Assembly (NCBI GenBank): GCA_913053235.1
Contig: CAJXFT010000016.1
Coordinates: 1 to 32,273 of the forward strand
DNA: 32,273 nucleotides
Direction of reading: 5' to 3'
From: an uncultured Alphaproteobacteria bacterium
GTDB lineage: Bacteria > Pseudomonadota > Alphaproteobacteria > UBA828
The translations under genes were made by a program, and so were the position numbers. The notes beneath the pieces were generated by a model, which saw nothing but the letters and a program-made list of their open reading frames with translations, did not search any database and was not told where the DNA came from. Shown one piece after another: positions 6,934 through 14,203 of this stretch (positions within the stretch are counted from its first letter, which is position 1; the number at the start of each line of letters is the position of its first letter).

Positions 6934-7354
<421 letters not shown>

Positions 7355-7661
7355 GCTTTTCTCTCGATCAAACTCGGCCAATACCCGGCGTTATTTGAAA
7401 AATTAAGGAAACTGCTTGGAATTCCTACATATTGTGGGTAGCTACGAATGCATCACAATATACGGTATTTTATTGCATACCAGCACGCAAGCGCGTTTCG
7501 TGGCGAAACGGAACACAACGAGAACAATATTCATTTCCAGTTATTTGAAATTCGATAGCGGGCGGCAGGTATCCGATCCCTCCGCAAGCCATTTCGTTAA
7601 TAACATCCTGTCTGTTTGCATTAATTCCCGGGGCCAAACACTTGTTTTTATTTGAAATCAT

Positions 7662-7690
7662 TTGACGTCCAAACTTTCCCACGATATACC
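7662..7690 (+). promoter_or_regulatory. Probable dcw (mraZ) promoter
   Basis: TTGACG (7662-7667), exact 17-bp spacer, TATACC (7685-7690), about 95 nt upstream of the mraZ start. Confidence 0.6.
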
Positions 7691-7721
7691 ATGATGTCCC
7701 AAGTGCCTGGTTAGGCGTGGT
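7668..7721. promoter_or_regulatory. Candidate MraZ operator (10-bp-phased repeats)
   Basis: TCCA 7668, CCCA 7678, ACCA 7688, CCCA 7698 (TGGN on the minus strand), then TGGT 7708 and TGGT 7718 on the plus strand, all on one 10-bp phase and overlapping the promoter. Confidence 0.5.
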
Positions 7722-7786
7722 ATTCGCGTCGCCCACGGCTTTCAGACGATGCGCGCGGGACGGATGTTTATTTGGGGAGCGTGGAC

Positions 7787-8257
7787 TTGGCTTTATTTAC
7801 CGGCCATGTCGTCAACAAGGTGGACCGCAAGGGACGGGTGTCCGTTCCGGCGTCGTTCCGCAACGAACTCGCCAAACTGAGTTTCCCCGGCATCGTCGTC
7901 TTTCCCTCTCCCGAGGGCCTGCCCGCCATCGATGGCGCCGGCATCGATTGGCTGGAAAATCTGAGCGCCAATTTCGGCACCGCAAATCCTTTCGCGCCCA
8001 AACTGCGCCAGGCCCGGATGGCGCTGTTCGGCCAAGTCGAGCGGCTCGGCTTCGACCCGGAGGGCCGCGTCATCCTCACCCGCGGGCTCATGGAACAGGC
8101 CAATATCAGCGACAGCGCCGCCTTTATCGGCATGGGCGAAACGTTCCAGATTTGGCAGCCGGAGGCCGGCGCATCGGTGCTCGGCGACGCCATCGCCGGC
8201 GCCCCGGCCGAGTTCGAAGCGATGGCGCAAAACGGCTCGTCGGAGGGTGATTCGTGA
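7787..8257 (+). CDS. mraZ: Transcriptional regulator MraZ
   Basis: MALFTGHVVNKVDRKGRVSVPASFR is the MraZ N-terminus. GGGGAG (7774-7779) sits 7 nt before TTG 7787, preferred over GTG 7781 or TTG 7772. Confidence 0.94.
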   Translation: MALFTGHVVNKVDRKGRVSVPASFRNELAKLSFPGIVVFPSPEGLPAIDGAGIDWLENLSANFGTANPFAPKLRQARMALFGQVERLGFDPEGRVILTRGLMEQANISDSAAFIGMGETFQIWQPEAGASVLGDAIAGAPAEFEAMAQNGSSEGDS

Positions 8258-9261
8258 TGGCCAGCGGTTCTTCATCGCGTCGGGCCGGGGCCGCCACGGG
8301 CGGTCACACACCGGTCATGCTGGCCGAGGTCTTGGAGACGCTGGCGCCGCGCGACGGCGCCGTCTATGTCGATTCCACCTTCGGCGGCGGCGGCTACAGC
8401 CGCGGCCTCCTGGAGGCGGCGGCGTGCCGCGTCTGCGCCATCGACCGCGACCCGGCGGCGATCGAGACGGGTGCGGCGCTGGCCCAGCGCTATCCCGGCC
8501 GCGTGACGCTGATCCAGGGCCGCTTCGGCGAGATGCAACAATTGCTGGCGCCGCACGGCATTCGCGAGGTCGACGGCATCGCCTTCGATCTCGGCGTTTC
8601 CTCAGCCCAGCTTGACGATGCGGCGCGCGGTTTTTCGTTCCGCTACGACGCCGCCCTCGACATGCGCATGGGCAGCGGCGGGCCGAGCGCCGAAGAGGTG
8701 ATCAACGGCGCGACGCAGGAAATGCTCGCCGATCTGATTTATGATTACGGCGAGGAGCGCCGCGCCCGCGCCATCGCCCGCGCCATCGTCGCGGCGCGCA
8801 CCGAGGCGCCGATCCGGCGCACCAGCCAGCTCGCCGACATCGTACGCGCCGTGGTGCGCCGCGGCGCCGGCGGCATCGACCCGGCGACGCGCACCTTTCA
8901 GGCGCTCCGCATCTACGTCAATGACGAGCTCGGCGAGCTCGATCTCGGTCTCGCCGCCAGCGAACGGATGCTGCGCCCGGGCGGCCGCCTCGCCGTGGTG
9001 TCCTTCCATTCGCTCGAGGATCGCCGCGTCAAGGCCTTCCTCAATCGGCGCGCCGGCGCCACACCGCGGCCGAGCCGCCATCTTCCCGAAGCGCTCGGCG
9101 ACGCCACAAAAATGCCGCAACCGAGTTTTAACCTGCTGCGCAAGCGGGCGCTGAAACCCGGCGCCGCCGAGCTGAGCGCCAACCCGCGTTCGCGCTCGGC
9201 ACGGCTGCGCGGCGGCGAACGCACCGGGGCGCCGGCCTGGCCCGAGGGCGCGGCGCCATGA
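8257..9261 (+). CDS. rsmH: 16S rRNA (cytosine(1402)-N(4))-methyltransferase RsmH (MraW)
   Basis: GGHTPVMLAEVLETLAPRDGAVYVDSTFGGGGYSRGLLEA; GIAFDLGVSSAQLDDAARGFSFRYDAALDMRM. ATG 8257 overlaps the mraZ stop by one base (TGATG). Confidence 0.96.
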   Translation: MASGSSSRRAGAATGGHTPVMLAEVLETLAPRDGAVYVDSTFGGGGYSRGLLEAAACRVCAIDRDPAAIETGAALAQRYPGRVTLIQGRFGEMQQLLAPHGIREVDGIAFDLGVSSAQLDDAARGFSFRYDAALDMRMGSGGPSAEEVINGATQEMLADLIYDYGEERRARAIARAIVAARTEAPIRRTSQLADIVRAVVRRGAGGIDPATRTFQALRIYVNDELGELDLGLAASERMLRPGGRLAVVSFHSLEDRRVKAFLNRRAGATPRPSRHLPEALGDATKMPQPSFNLLRKRALKPGAAELSANPRSRSARLRGGERTGAPAWPEGAAP

Positions 9262-9548
9262 TTAGGCCCGACCTCATTCTGTGGATCGGCCTGCCGGCCA
9301 TCGTCACCATCGCGCTGCTCCTCATCAGCTATCAGGTTCAGCGCCTCGAGAACGAGTTGGACCGGCTGGAGCGCGCGGCGATCGCGCAACAGGAAGAGAT
9401 ACATGTGCTGAACGCCGAATGGAGTTTTCTCAACCGCCCCGAACGGCTGGCCCGCCTGGCCGAGCGCCATTTGCAGCTCGCCCCCGTGGCGCCCAGGCAG
9501 ATGATTTCCTTTACCGACGAACCCCCGTTTCAAGGCCTGGAAGAATGA
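9258..9548 (+). CDS. ftsL: Cell division protein FtsL
   Basis: Small bitopic protein with TM (LILWIGLPAIVTIALLLISYQ), coiled coil and EWSFLNRPERLARLAERHLQL between rsmH and ftsI; ATGA overlaps both sides. Confidence 0.88.
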   Translation: MIRPDLILWIGLPAIVTIALLLISYQVQRLENELDRLERAAIAQQEEIHVLNAEWSFLNRPERLARLAERHLQLAPVAPRQMISFTDEPPFQGLEE

Positions 9549-11302
9549 GCGAATTATCGGTCCGAGCCTGGCGCGATGCCGCCGGGGAAATGAGCCGCAA
9601 TGGCGGCATCGAGAAACTCAGCGCCCGCGACGCCCGCCGGCCGCTGGAGACGGCGCGCACCCGCCTGCTCGTCGCCGGCGCCATATTCGCGCTGTGTTTT
9701 GCCATTCTAGGCGGCCGCCTGGTTCAGCTTTCGCTGCTCGGCGATGGCACCGACATGGCGCGCACCGCCCAGCACGGGAGCGCGCTTTTGACGCTTCAGC
9801 GCGCCGACATCCTCGACCGCAACGGCGCCCTCCTGGCCACCAACCTGCCCTCCCAGTCGCTCTATGTGGACCCCACTCTGGTGCTCGATGCCGTGGAAGC
9901 GGCGCGCAAGATCCACGGCGTTCTGCCCGAGCTGTCGCGCCAGGAGATCACCGACAAGGCCAGCGCCACGGGAAGTTTCCGCTGGATCCGGCGCAATCTC
10001 ACGCCCGAGCAATATTATGCCGTCAACCGCCTCGGCCTGCCCGGCTTCGGCTTCCGGCGCGAGGAACGGCGCGTCTATCCGCATGGCTCGCTGTTCGTTC
10101 ATACGCTCGGTTTCGCCGGCATCGACAATAGCGGCCTGGCCGGGCTGGAAGCCGCCCGCGACAGCGATTTGAAAAGCCTGGCGGCAAGCCATGGCGGCGC
10201 CATGATCACCTCGCTCGACAGCCGCGTTCAGCATATCGTCAATGGCGAACTGGCCGCCGCAATGGCCGAGTTCGACGCCAAGGGCGCCGCCGGCATCGTG
10301 CTCGACGTGCATAGCGGCGAGGTGCTGGCGCTTTCCAGCCTGCCCGACTTCAATCCCTATGACCTCAAATCCAGCAAGGCGGATCAGCGCTTCAACCGCG
10401 CCACGCTCGGCGTCTACGAGCTCGGCTCGACCTTCAAGGCCTTCACCACCGCCATGGCGCTCGAATATGGCGTCGTCGATCTGGGCGACCGCTATGACGC
10501 CACCGAGCCGCTCAAGGTCGCGCGCTTTGTCATCCGCGACGACCATCCGCAAAACCGCTGGCTCGATATCCCGGAAATCTTCATCCACTCATCGAATATC
10601 GGCGCCGCCCAGATGGCGCGCGACGTCGGCGCCGAACGGCAGAAGGAATTTCTCGGCCGTCTCGGGATGCTCTCGCAATTGCCTCTTGAGCTGGCCGAGA
10701 ACGGCCGCCCGCTGGCGCCGCGCCGGTGGCGTGAAATCAATGTCATGACCATCGGTTACGGCCACGGCATCGCGGTAACGCCGCTGCATCTGATCAACGG
10801 CTTCGCCACCCTGGTGAATGGCGGCATCATGCGCCCGCCGACATTGCTGCGCCGTGACGGCGCGGTGGCGGGGAAACGCGTGATGACGCGCGAAACCTCG
10901 GATGCGATGCGCGCCCTGATGCGCATGGTGGTCGAAGACGGCACCGGCAAGAAGGCCGAAGCCGCCGGCTATCTCGTCGGCGGCAAGACCGGCACGGCGG
11001 AAAAGGCGGTGCGCGGCGGCTACAAGAAAAACGCCCTGATCACCACTTTCGTCGGCGCCTTTCCCATGGATGCGCCGCGCTATGCCGTCTTGGTGATGCT
11101 CGACGAGCCGCATGGCAACAAAGCCACGCACGGCTTCGCCGCCGCCGGCTGGAATGCGGCGCCGGTGGTCAGCCGGATCGTTTCGCGAATCGCACCCATG
11201 CTGGGCGTCATGGCGCTGCTGCCGTCGGACGAAGATGAAGAAGACAGTGAACGCTTGTTGGTGCGGGCCGATGGAGAGGGCCGCCGATTTGCGTCTTTTT
11301 GA
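9545..11302 (+). CDS. ftsI: Penicillin-binding protein / peptidoglycan D,D-transpeptidase FtsI
   Basis: SxxK (STFK), SxN (SSN) and KTG (GGKTGTAEK) motifs; PBP dimerisation domain. ATG 9545 gives an ATGA overlap with ftsL. Confidence 0.96.
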   Translation: MSELSVRAWRDAAGEMSRNGGIEKLSARDARRPLETARTRLLVAGAIFALCFAILGGRLVQLSLLGDGTDMARTAQHGSALLTLQRADILDRNGALLATNLPSQSLYVDPTLVLDAVEAARKIHGVLPELSRQEITDKASATGSFRWIRRNLTPEQYYAVNRLGLPGFGFRREERRVYPHGSLFVHTLGFAGIDNSGLAGLEAARDSDLKSLAASHGGAMITSLDSRVQHIVNGELAAAMAEFDAKGAAGIVLDVHSGEVLALSSLPDFNPYDLKSSKADQRFNRATLGVYELGSTFKAFTTAMALEYGVVDLGDRYDATEPLKVARFVIRDDHPQNRWLDIPEIFIHSSNIGAAQMARDVGAERQKEFLGRLGMLSQLPLELAENGRPLAPRRWREINVMTIGYGHGIAVTPLHLINGFATLVNGGIMRPPTLLRRDGAVAGKRVMTRETSDAMRALMRMVVEDGTGKKAEAAGYLVGGKTGTAEKAVRGGYKKNALITTFVGAFPMDAPRYAVLVMLDEPHGNKATHGFAAAGWNAAPVVSRIVSRIAPMLGVMALLPSDEDEEDSERLLVRADGEGRRFASF

Positions 11303-12758
11303 ACTCAGGGATGAAGGCCGCGGGGCGCATGAGGGTAAGGATGTGGAGATAACCGGCCTGACATCGGATTCGCGCGAAGTCCGGCCGGGCTTTCTGTTCG
11401 CGGCGCTCGACGGCAGCCGCGCGCGCGGCGCCGATTTCATCCCCGAAGCTTTGCTGAACGGCGCCGCCGCCATCCTGGCGCCGCCGGGAACCAGCCTCGG
11501 CGAGGCGCCACCAGGCGCCGCGAGTCTGATTTCGGACGCTAACCCGCGCCGCCGTTTTGCCGAGATGGCGGCGCGCTTTTTTGTCCGCCAGCCGCGCACC
11601 ATCGCGGCCGTGACCGGCACCAACGGCAAGAGTTCGACCGTCACCTTCATCCGCGAACTGTGGCGCGCCGGCGGATCGAAGGCCGCCAGCCTCGGAAGCC
11701 TCGGCGTCGAAGGCGACGGTCCAGCCTCCGATGTCACCTTGACCACGCCCGATCCGGTGGTCCTGCATCGCACCCTGGCGGCGCTCGCCGAGGCCGGCGT
11801 GACGCGCTGCGCATTGGAGGCGTCGAGTCACGGCCTCGATCAATACCGCCTCGATGGCGTCCGCGTGACCGCTGCCGCGTTCCTCAACCTGACCCGCGAC
11901 CATCTCGACTATCACCGCGATCTGGAAAGTTACTTAGCCGCCAAGCAACGCTTGTTCGCCGACGTCATGGCGCCGGGCGGCGATGCGGTATTGAACGGTG
12001 AATCGCCCTACAGCCAGCGCATCGCCGAGATCTGCCGCGCCCGCGGCCACCATATTCTGCGCTTTGGCGGCGCCGACGCCGATATCCGGCTGATATCGCG
12101 CCGCGACGAGAATTTCGGCCAGCGCATCGAGCTCGAACTGCTCGGCACGGCCTATGATCTGTTCATCCCGCTGCCCGGCGCCTTTCAGGTGCAAAACATG
12201 ATGGCCGCCGCCGCGCTGGCCATCGCCACCGGCATGTCGGAGGATCAAGTGGCGGCCGCTCTGCCGCGCCTCGCCGGCGTCCGCGGGCGCCTCGAACTGG
12301 CCGCCCGCCTGCCCGGCGGCGCGCCGGTCTATGTCGATTACGCGCACACGCCCGACGCCTTGGAAGCCGCCCTCAATGGGCTGCGGCCCTATATCAGCGG
12401 CCGCCTCATCCTGTTGTTCGGCTGCGGCGGCGACCGCGATGCCGGCAAGCGCCCGCAAATGGGCGAAATCGCCGCCCGGCTGGCCGACATGGTGTTCGTC
12501 AGCGACGACAATCCGCGCTACGAGGATGCGGCGTCGATCCGCCACGAAATCATTGCCGCCTGCCCGGATGCCATTGAAATTTCCGGGCGCGGCGAGGCGA
12601 TCGCCGCCGCCATCGCCGAGCTGCGCCAGCATGACCTGCTGTTGATCGCCGGCAAGGGCCACGAGCAGGGCCAAAGCATCGCCGAGCGCTGGGTACCCTT
12701 CGATGACGGCGAAATGGCGCGCCGCGCCGTCATGGCGCATGCGCGGATGCCGTCATGA
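11271..12758 (+). CDS. murE: UDP-N-acetylmuramoyl-L-alanyl-D-glutamate--2,6-diaminopimelate ligase MurE
   Basis: VTGTNGKSSTVTF; SSHGLDQYRLDGV; DNPRYED motif consistent with meso-DAP specificity. Likely ATG 11271, overlapping the ftsI end by 32 nt. Confidence 0.95.
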   Translation: MERAADLRLFELRDEGRGAHEGKDVEITGLTSDSREVRPGFLFAALDGSRARGADFIPEALLNGAAAILAPPGTSLGEAPPGAASLISDANPRRRFAEMAARFFVRQPRTIAAVTGTNGKSSTVTFIRELWRAGGSKAASLGSLGVEGDGPASDVTLTTPDPVVLHRTLAALAEAGVTRCALEASSHGLDQYRLDGVRVTAAAFLNLTRDHLDYHRDLESYLAAKQRLFADVMAPGGDAVLNGESPYSQRIAEICRARGHHILRFGGADADIRLISRRDENFGQRIELELLGTAYDLFIPLPGAFQVQNMMAAAALAIATGMSEDQVAAALPRLAGVRGRLELAARLPGGAPVYVDYAHTPDALEAALNGLRPYISGRLILLFGCGGDRDAGKRPQMGEIAARLADMVFVSDDNPRYEDAASIRHEIIAACPDAIEISGRGEAIAAAIAELRQHDLLLIAGKGHEQGQSIAERWVPFDDGEMARRAVMAHARMPS

Positions 12759-14203
12759 ATAAAAGCGTGAACATGACAGTGCCATTGTGGAGCGCCGCCG
12801 AGGCGGCCGATGCCACCGGCGGCGAGCAGCGCGGCGATTGGCGCGCCGACGGCGTCTCGATCGACAGCCGCACCCTGGCGCCGGGCGATTTGTTCGTCGC
12901 CCTCAAGGGCCCCAATCATGACGGCCATGACCATGTCGCCAAAGCGCTCGACGCCAGCGCCGCGGCGGCGATGGTCGAGCGCGCGCCGGATATCGAGAGC
13001 GCGCCGGCGCCGCTTCTGATCGTGCCCGACAGCCTCGAAGGCCTCGCCGCCCTGGCCCAGGCGGCACGGGCGCGCAGCACCGCGCGCATCATCGCCGTCA
13101 CCGGCAGCGTCGGCAAGACCGGAACCAAGGAATTGATCGCCCGGGCGCTGGCTACGGCGGGCCGCGTCTCGGTCAGCGCCGGCAATCTGAACAATTATAT
13201 CGGCGCGCCGTTGAGCCTGGCGCGGCTGCCGGCGGAGGCCGCGTTCGGCGTCTTCGAGCTGGGCATGAATCAGCCCGGAGAAATCGCGCCCCTTTCCCGC
13301 CTGGCGCGCCCGCATGTCGTGCTGGTGACCAATGTCGAGGCGGTCCATACCGAATTCTTCAGCCATGTCGACGCGGTGGCCGAGGCCAAGGCGGAAATCT
13401 TCGCCGGCCTCGAGCCGGGCGCCGTGGCGGTGCTCAATTGCGACAATAAATATTTCGAGTTCTTAAAGGCACGGGCGCGCGATGCCGGGGCGGCGCGCAT
13501 CATCGCCTTTGGCCGCGGCAAGGAAGCCGAGGCGCGCCTGCTCGCCTGGTCACCCGACCGCGAGGGCGGACAGGTTGAAGCGGAAATATGCGGCAGCCGC
13601 TGTTCATACCGCATTTCCCTGAGCGGCGAACATTGGGCGCTCAACAGCGTCGCCGCCCTCGCCACCGCCGTCGCGGCGGGAGCGCCGCTCGGCGCGGCGG
13701 CGGATTCCCTGATCGCGCAGCAGGCCCTGCCCGGCCGCGGCGCGCGCCACCGCCTCGCCGTGCCGGGCGGGCAGTTCGATTTGATCGACGAATCCTATAA
13801 CGCCAGCCCGGTCGCCGTCGGCGCCGCCATCGAATGCTTGAAGAATTTCCCGCCCGGCCCGGGCGCGCGCCGCATCGCGGTGCTCGGCGACATGCTCGAA
13901 CTCGGCGGCGGCGCGGCCGCGGCGCATGCCGCCCTTGCGCCGGCGCTGGAGGCAGCCGGGGTCGATCTGGTGTTTACCGTCGGGCCGCTGATGTCCCACC
14001 TCTTCGCCGCCCTGCCCAACTCGCTGCGGGCCGCTCAGGCGGACAGCGCCGCCGACCTGCTGCCGGCGCTGCGCGCGGCGCTCAGGCCCGGCGATGTGGT
14101 GCTCATCAAAGGCTCGCTCGGCATCAGGATGGGGCTTCTCGTCGATGCTCTCACCGATGACGGCGAAAGCGCGGCGCCGTCCGGTGCGCGGATGAGCGGC
14201 TAG
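12755..14203 (+). CDS. murF: UDP-N-acetylmuramoyl-tripeptide--D-alanyl-D-alanine ligase MurF
   Basis: [55 protein letters not shown]. Confidence 0.95.

Follow-up and report, generated by a model that had tools for sequence, protein, structure and literature searches.

The window, a stretch of 32,273 nucleotides, comes from contig 16 of a 3.92-Mb alphaproteobacterial draft genome (G000), whose congeneric relatives include the MAGs MarineAlpha10_Bin2 and Rhodospirillaceae SI073_bin108. Inspection of the gene order reveals an RNase P RNA, a 429-bp intergenic region (7358-7786), mraZ, rsmH, ftsL, a gene for a PBP2-type transpeptidase, murE and murF (Table 1). Locus L023 likewise has the 3' end of the RNase P RNA upstream of mraZ, and this arrangement may therefore be an old one. 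No terminator was found in the intergenic region 7358-7786, and the upstream RNase P RNA was the only known RNA family detected at the site.

Table 1. Features of the mraZ locus, with positions in the window
Feature	Position	Strand	Remarks
RNase P RNA	6935-7357	+	Class A, 288.6 bits
-35 element TTGACG of the predicted mraZ/dcw promoter	7662..7667	+	TTGAC in box register class-wide
Candidate MraZ box 1	7668..7671	-	TCCA on +, TGGA on -; CCA invariant in six congeners, CCCA in three
Candidate MraZ box 2	7678..7681	-	CCCA on +, TGGG on -; conserved in genus and class
-10 element TATACC	7685..7690	+	17-bp spacer; class consensus TGnTATCCC
Candidate MraZ box 3	7688..7691	-	ACCA on +, TGGT on -; partly overlaps the -10 element
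Predicted dcw operon transcription start	7696..7698	+	Placed from the -10 position
Candidate MraZ box 4	7698..7701	-	CCCA on +, TGGG on -; invariant in genus; at the predicted transcription start
mraZ	7787..8257	+	TTG start, 156 aa; PF02381 above cut-off, NCBIfam MraZ models best
rsmH (mraW)	8257..9261	+	TIGR00006, 286 bits; next dcw gene, putative target
ftsL, PBP2-type transpeptidase (ftsI), murE, murF	9258..14203	+	Remaining dcw genes in the window, putative targets

MraZ is among the most broadly conserved bacterial regulators and governs the essential division and cell-wall cluster. Two Pfam stretches of PF02381 are present in the protein encoded here, one above the cut-off (23.5 bits) and one below it (21.4 bits); its scores fall under the NCBIfam equivalog cut-offs, though MraZ models are the best matches. 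Each half contains one DxxxR motif; D13xKGR17 and D90xxGR94 are both unchanged across 14 homologues, that of E. coli among them. The two MraZ domains with DxxxR motifs that characterize the family are in place. PDB entries 9sx6, 9sz7, 9qlg, 9r4j and 9qlr represent MraZ structures. The TTG start is backed by a common N-terminus (MALF) and by its presence at this position in all six congeneric species (the window at 7787 and L004-L008); several related genera use GTG, and a weak start codon may hold the repressor at a low level.

The earlier note had described a promoter of the form TTGACG-N17-TATACC upstream of mraZ, with four CCA boxes and two TGGT elements overlaid on or following it, and every one of these coordinates proved exact. 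The TGGT elements lie on the plus strand at 7708 and 7718, in 10-bp phase with the boxes. The longest same-strand run of 10-bp-phased CCA in the intergenic region (7358-7786) comprises four repeats. Across 20,000 dinucleotide-preserving shuffles of this region, the longest CCA or TGG run was three (56 times) and a run of four never arose, and periods of 6-9 and 11-15 in the native region gave no CCA run above one. The 3.92-Mb genome contains a single match to the pattern CCAN7CCAN7CCAN7CCA, which spans 7669-7701. A reversed control pattern gave 1+1 matches (one per strand) over the whole genome, which places the bare pattern near chance genome-wide, such that the weight of the argument is carried by location and conservation. 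As the pattern of four CCA has no second site, the idea of a larger set of MraZ targets in this genome was discarded.

Conservation within the genus was assessed from an alignment of six congeneric species. In the block spanning 7661-7702, 34 of 42 positions are invariant, against 18/49 in the upstream flank and 19/50 and 12/34 in the downstream flanks (35-38%). Identity to this genome is 86-98% across the congeners in the block and 52-84% in the flanks. All six species keep the CCA of boxes 1-4 without change, so the part of the earlier note that expected phased trinucleotides to persist in relatives stands for these boxes. It does not stand for either TGGT. The note had spoken of an array of mixed orientation, in which one MraZ assembly would occupy the four inverted boxes together with the direct elements at 7708 and 7718. 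The exact 10-bp phase of the 4-mers and retention of the TGG at 7708 in four of the six congeners speak for such an operator, but TGA replaces this TGG in the other two, and the TGG at 7718 is found in this genome alone, the five other congeners having TCG or CCG. More distant relatives lack a TGG array at the positions of 7708 and 7718, and the direct orientation never amounts to a full array in the alphaproteobacterial genomes tested. A mixed operator is therefore unlikely. On conservation among congeners, the two TGGT elements were rejected as true boxes; they are probably chance occurrences, and the operator orientation is accordingly inverted rather than mixed.

To place this orientation in a wider context, mraZ upstream regions were collected from ~115 alphaproteobacterial families and closer relatives, and compared with 27 Pseudomonadota from outside the class plus E. 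coli K-12 (n = 28). The score of a region was its best value within 300 bp for four CCCA separated by a constant step (maximum 16), with at least 14/16 taken as a full array; homology was used to place the mraZ start codons, which at some loci may be a few codons off. At a step of 10, 89 of 117 alphaproteobacterial genomes reached at least 14 with CCCA on the coding strand and 0 with TGGG. At other steps only 0-1 of the 117 did so, and shuffles gave 0.0017 and 0. With a further order added, CCCA scored better than TGGG in 131/139 alphaproteobacterial genomes, with 101 full CCCA arrays and 0 full TGGG arrays, whereas coding-strand TGGG was the better in 28/28 of the comparison set including E. 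coli (at least 14 in 15 of them); since the surveyed genomes are related, these counts do not represent independent events, and the inversion may be a single one. The earlier note had left room for the inverted orientation to be a feature of the lineage, and the survey bears this out.

Eight of the 139 alphaproteobacterial loci break the orientation rule, several of them having no clear array. One alphaproteobacterium (L123/L154, G033) combines a very divergent MraZ (31% identity) with three direct, E. coli-like boxes of TGGG type 176 bp upstream of mraZ, and perhaps owes this exception to a transferred gene. Two further loci, L164 and L176, encode divergent MraZ proteins and show CCCG- or CCCC-like upstream repeats (e.g. 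TTCCCGTGATTTCCCC in L176), a possible sign of altered box specificity.

When 40 genomes of relatives were searched with CCCATN5CCCATN5CCCA, 20 of them gave a total of 29 matches. Of these matches, 27 sit immediately before mraZ, and the other two resemble unrelated tandem repeats (GGTGG/CCAG-type). The reversed control gave one match over the same 40 genomes, and no convincing second site was found in any of the 40 genomes without a match at the mraZ location. The array therefore belongs to mraZ and marks essentially one target.

Alignment of the alphaproteobacterial regions shows how boxes and promoter fit together. The alphaproteobacterial consensus is TTGACGCCCATnnnnTCCCATGnTATCCCATnnnnTCCCA, with boxes locked onto the -35 element, the spacer, the -10 element and the start, and the consensus of 83 TTGAC-aligned promoters reads [CCCA]TTGACGCCCATAAATTCCCATGATATCCCATnnnnTCCCA. 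Where an array has a TTGAC nearby, this is in register with the boxes (3 or 4 mod 10) in 78/85 cases. TAT falls at +23 (17-bp spacer) in 50/83 aligned promoters and at +24 in 18/83; in a set of 69 promoters, it lies 23 or 24 bp past the first T of TTGAC (17- or 18-bp spacer) in 51/69 and 18/69, respectively. Within the latter set TTGACG is the commonest -35 form (37/69), the -10 element reads TATCCC in 64 and TATACC in four, and 63 carry TGnTATCCC, an extended -10 ending in the first three bases of a box. A strict sigma-70 promoter scan of the intergenic region gave no match, and TTGACG/TATACC is not a strict sigma-70 promoter. By its sequence, the -10 element (TATACC/TATCCC) is a poor sigma-70 hexamer, and the TTGACG and TATACC hexamers are part of a predicted promoter conserved class-wide. 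Four of the six congeners, this genome included, show TG to CG and TATCCC to TATACC in the -10 region, but they probably form one clade and count as a single case. In the window at 7682-7690, the TG of the extended -10 and the first base of box 3 co-vary, with CGATATACC in L004, L005 and L007 versus TGATATCCC in L006 and L008. A possible reading is a trade-off in which the promoter gives up its extended -10 and gains an improved hexamer, while box 3 is weakened.

Because boxes 1 and 3 overlap the hexamers, one might ask whether the core promoter (TTGAC, TAT) alone accounts for the conservation, leaving the CCCA repeats as a by-product. We regard this as very unlikely. Boxes also occupy the spacer, where the CC is 86-91% conserved among the aligned alphaproteobacterial promoters, as well as +1 and, in many alphaproteobacterial genomes, positions upstream of the -35 element. 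Of 101 full arrays, 47 have four boxes and 36 have five, the maximum being seven, and 49/101 have five to seven. Promoters do not require CCCA at 10-bp steps. It is scarcely credible that the boxes instead serve another dcw regulator such as the response regulators NtrX or CenR, which in R. sphaeroides have both been mapped to the region ahead of mraZ (PMC7240162; PMC9275681), given that 7358-7786 contains no NtrX motif (GCA-N9-TGC), that a TGGG core at 10-bp steps is that of MraZ, and that the array is found with mraZ and almost nowhere else. Nor were CtrA (TTAA-N7-TTAA) or GANTC sites found in 7358-7786.

A hairpin at the 5' end of the RNA, pairing box 4 (GUCCCA) with a downstream TGGGAC, was also tried and rejected: it is suggestive in genus and family, but the class-wide pairing of the last box was reached by 10/100 shuffles, and folding of the leader was no better than that of shuffles (z 0.55, -0.24, 0.51). 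The TGGGAC itself, here CGGGAC at 7755-7760, lies ~30 nt upstream of the mraZ start codon, is conserved in the family (L004-L012, L016) and is complementary to box 4 (GTCCCA). It could represent a stem in the 5' messenger RNA or an extra MraZ half-site.

MraZ boxes at the E. coli mraZ promoter were reportedly described by Eraso and colleagues in 2014. In the E. coli sequence (NC_000913), GTGGGAAATTGTGGGGCAAAGTGGGAATAAGGGGTG stands on the coding strand after TTGACA...TAAACT. The array described here shares with it the TGGG core, the 10-bp period, three to four boxes, a position directly upstream of mraZ and one array per operon. The two differ in that the E. coli boxes follow the -10 element and belong to the coding strand, while here they run over the template strand from -35 to +1. 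The base preceding TGGG also differs, being A in 77% of alphaproteobacterial boxes and G in 75% of the others, which makes the box itself slightly different between the groups. In Burkholderia cenocepacia, the MraZ site consists of four repeats of period 10 (7 nt plus a 3-nt spacer), a 10-bp-phased GTGGG upstream of mraZ, and EMSA supports binding of MraZ to the promoter fragment (PMC7761207). The number of repeats, the period and the (here predicted) overlap with the transcription start are common to both systems, but the B. cenocepacia repeats are in the GTG orientation and, like those of E. coli, downstream of the -10. For Mollicutes, the account in PMC8475190 gives AAAGTG[T/G] direct repeats in the mraZ promoter (citing Fisunov et al. 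2016), repression of the cluster by MraZ and, for Mycoplasma genitalium, a sole target. According to this account, a direct repeat array in the mraZ promoter and essentially one target, as in M. genitalium, are shared features, and the core differs in being GTG without GGG. Rhodobacter sphaeroides also has a dcw control region of alphaproteobacterial type, in which UpsM forms a 268-nt leader upstream of mraZ with an sRNA, a terminator and no near mraZ promoter (PMC5089854). This contrasts with the predicted leader of ~90 nt here and an intergenic region in which no terminator was seen. Because R. sphaeroides mraZ lacks a nearby promoter (PMC5089854), the arrangement described here is not universal in Alphaproteobacteria.

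Taken as an MraZ operator, the array presents TGGG-type repeats (TGGG, TGGT, TGGG and TGGA on the minus strand) with a 10-bp period, here and class-wide, at the promoter of mraZ, the first dcw gene, and is conserved between species. Unlike those of E. coli and Burkholderia, which follow the -10 on the coding strand, the boxes occupy the template strand from -35 to +1. A coding-strand position is a trait of the described examples and is unnecessary for operator function, for which reason we term the array a variant. The earlier note's reading of the site as the MraZ box is upheld by an array that overlies the mraZ promoter, is phased and conserved, stands in register with TTGAC/TAT and is near-exclusive to mraZ, and by the conserved DxxxR motifs of the MraZ protein. 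On this evidence the four boxes very probably form an MraZ operator on the mraZ promoter, through which the dcw operon would be autorepressed by promoter occlusion. Judged from sequence comparison, the predicted operator is a class-wide, strand-inverted and promoter-overlapping variant of the known one.

We infer MraZ binding, the transcription start and repression by occlusion as follows. With one TGGG-type box in each helical turn, the four boxes of the template strand face the same side of the duplex from the -35 element through the spacer and the -10 element to the predicted start. MraZ, which the leading gene of the operon encodes, would bind them through several subunits of its ring, the bound ring would exclude RNA polymerase from the promoter, and the operon would thereby curb its own expression. 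Because one helix face is covered with TGGG on either strand, inversion need not harm an occluding repressor; the inversion is consistent with simple occlusion without proving it. We lean towards the broader view that in Alphaproteobacteria the MraZ operator was flipped to the other strand and merged with the core promoter, with every promoter element boxed, whereas in other Pseudomonadota it has stayed on the coding strand, past the -10 element. On this view strand would not matter to MraZ control, and the step blocked would be polymerase binding instead of escape.

In the open-access literature searched, MraZ sites come from gamma- and betaproteobacteria and Mollicutes, to which the present consensus adds Alphaproteobacteria. 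A limited search of this literature found no description of inverted MraZ boxes in the class, and an earlier one is possible. The predicted operator would have one regulator served by opposite operator strands at different places relative to the promoter, and the alphaproteobacterial consensus provides a ready test system, for example in Caulobacter. When a single genome is annotated, the consensus allows a repeat that was no more than suggestive to be called an operator with confidence. Upstream of the operator, an ACTTG at ~7642-7646, 10-25 bp upstream of the -35 element and followed by an A+T-rich stretch, is conserved in the family (L004-L015, L017, L020-L022); it may be an UP-like element, the site of a regulator or part of a second promoter.
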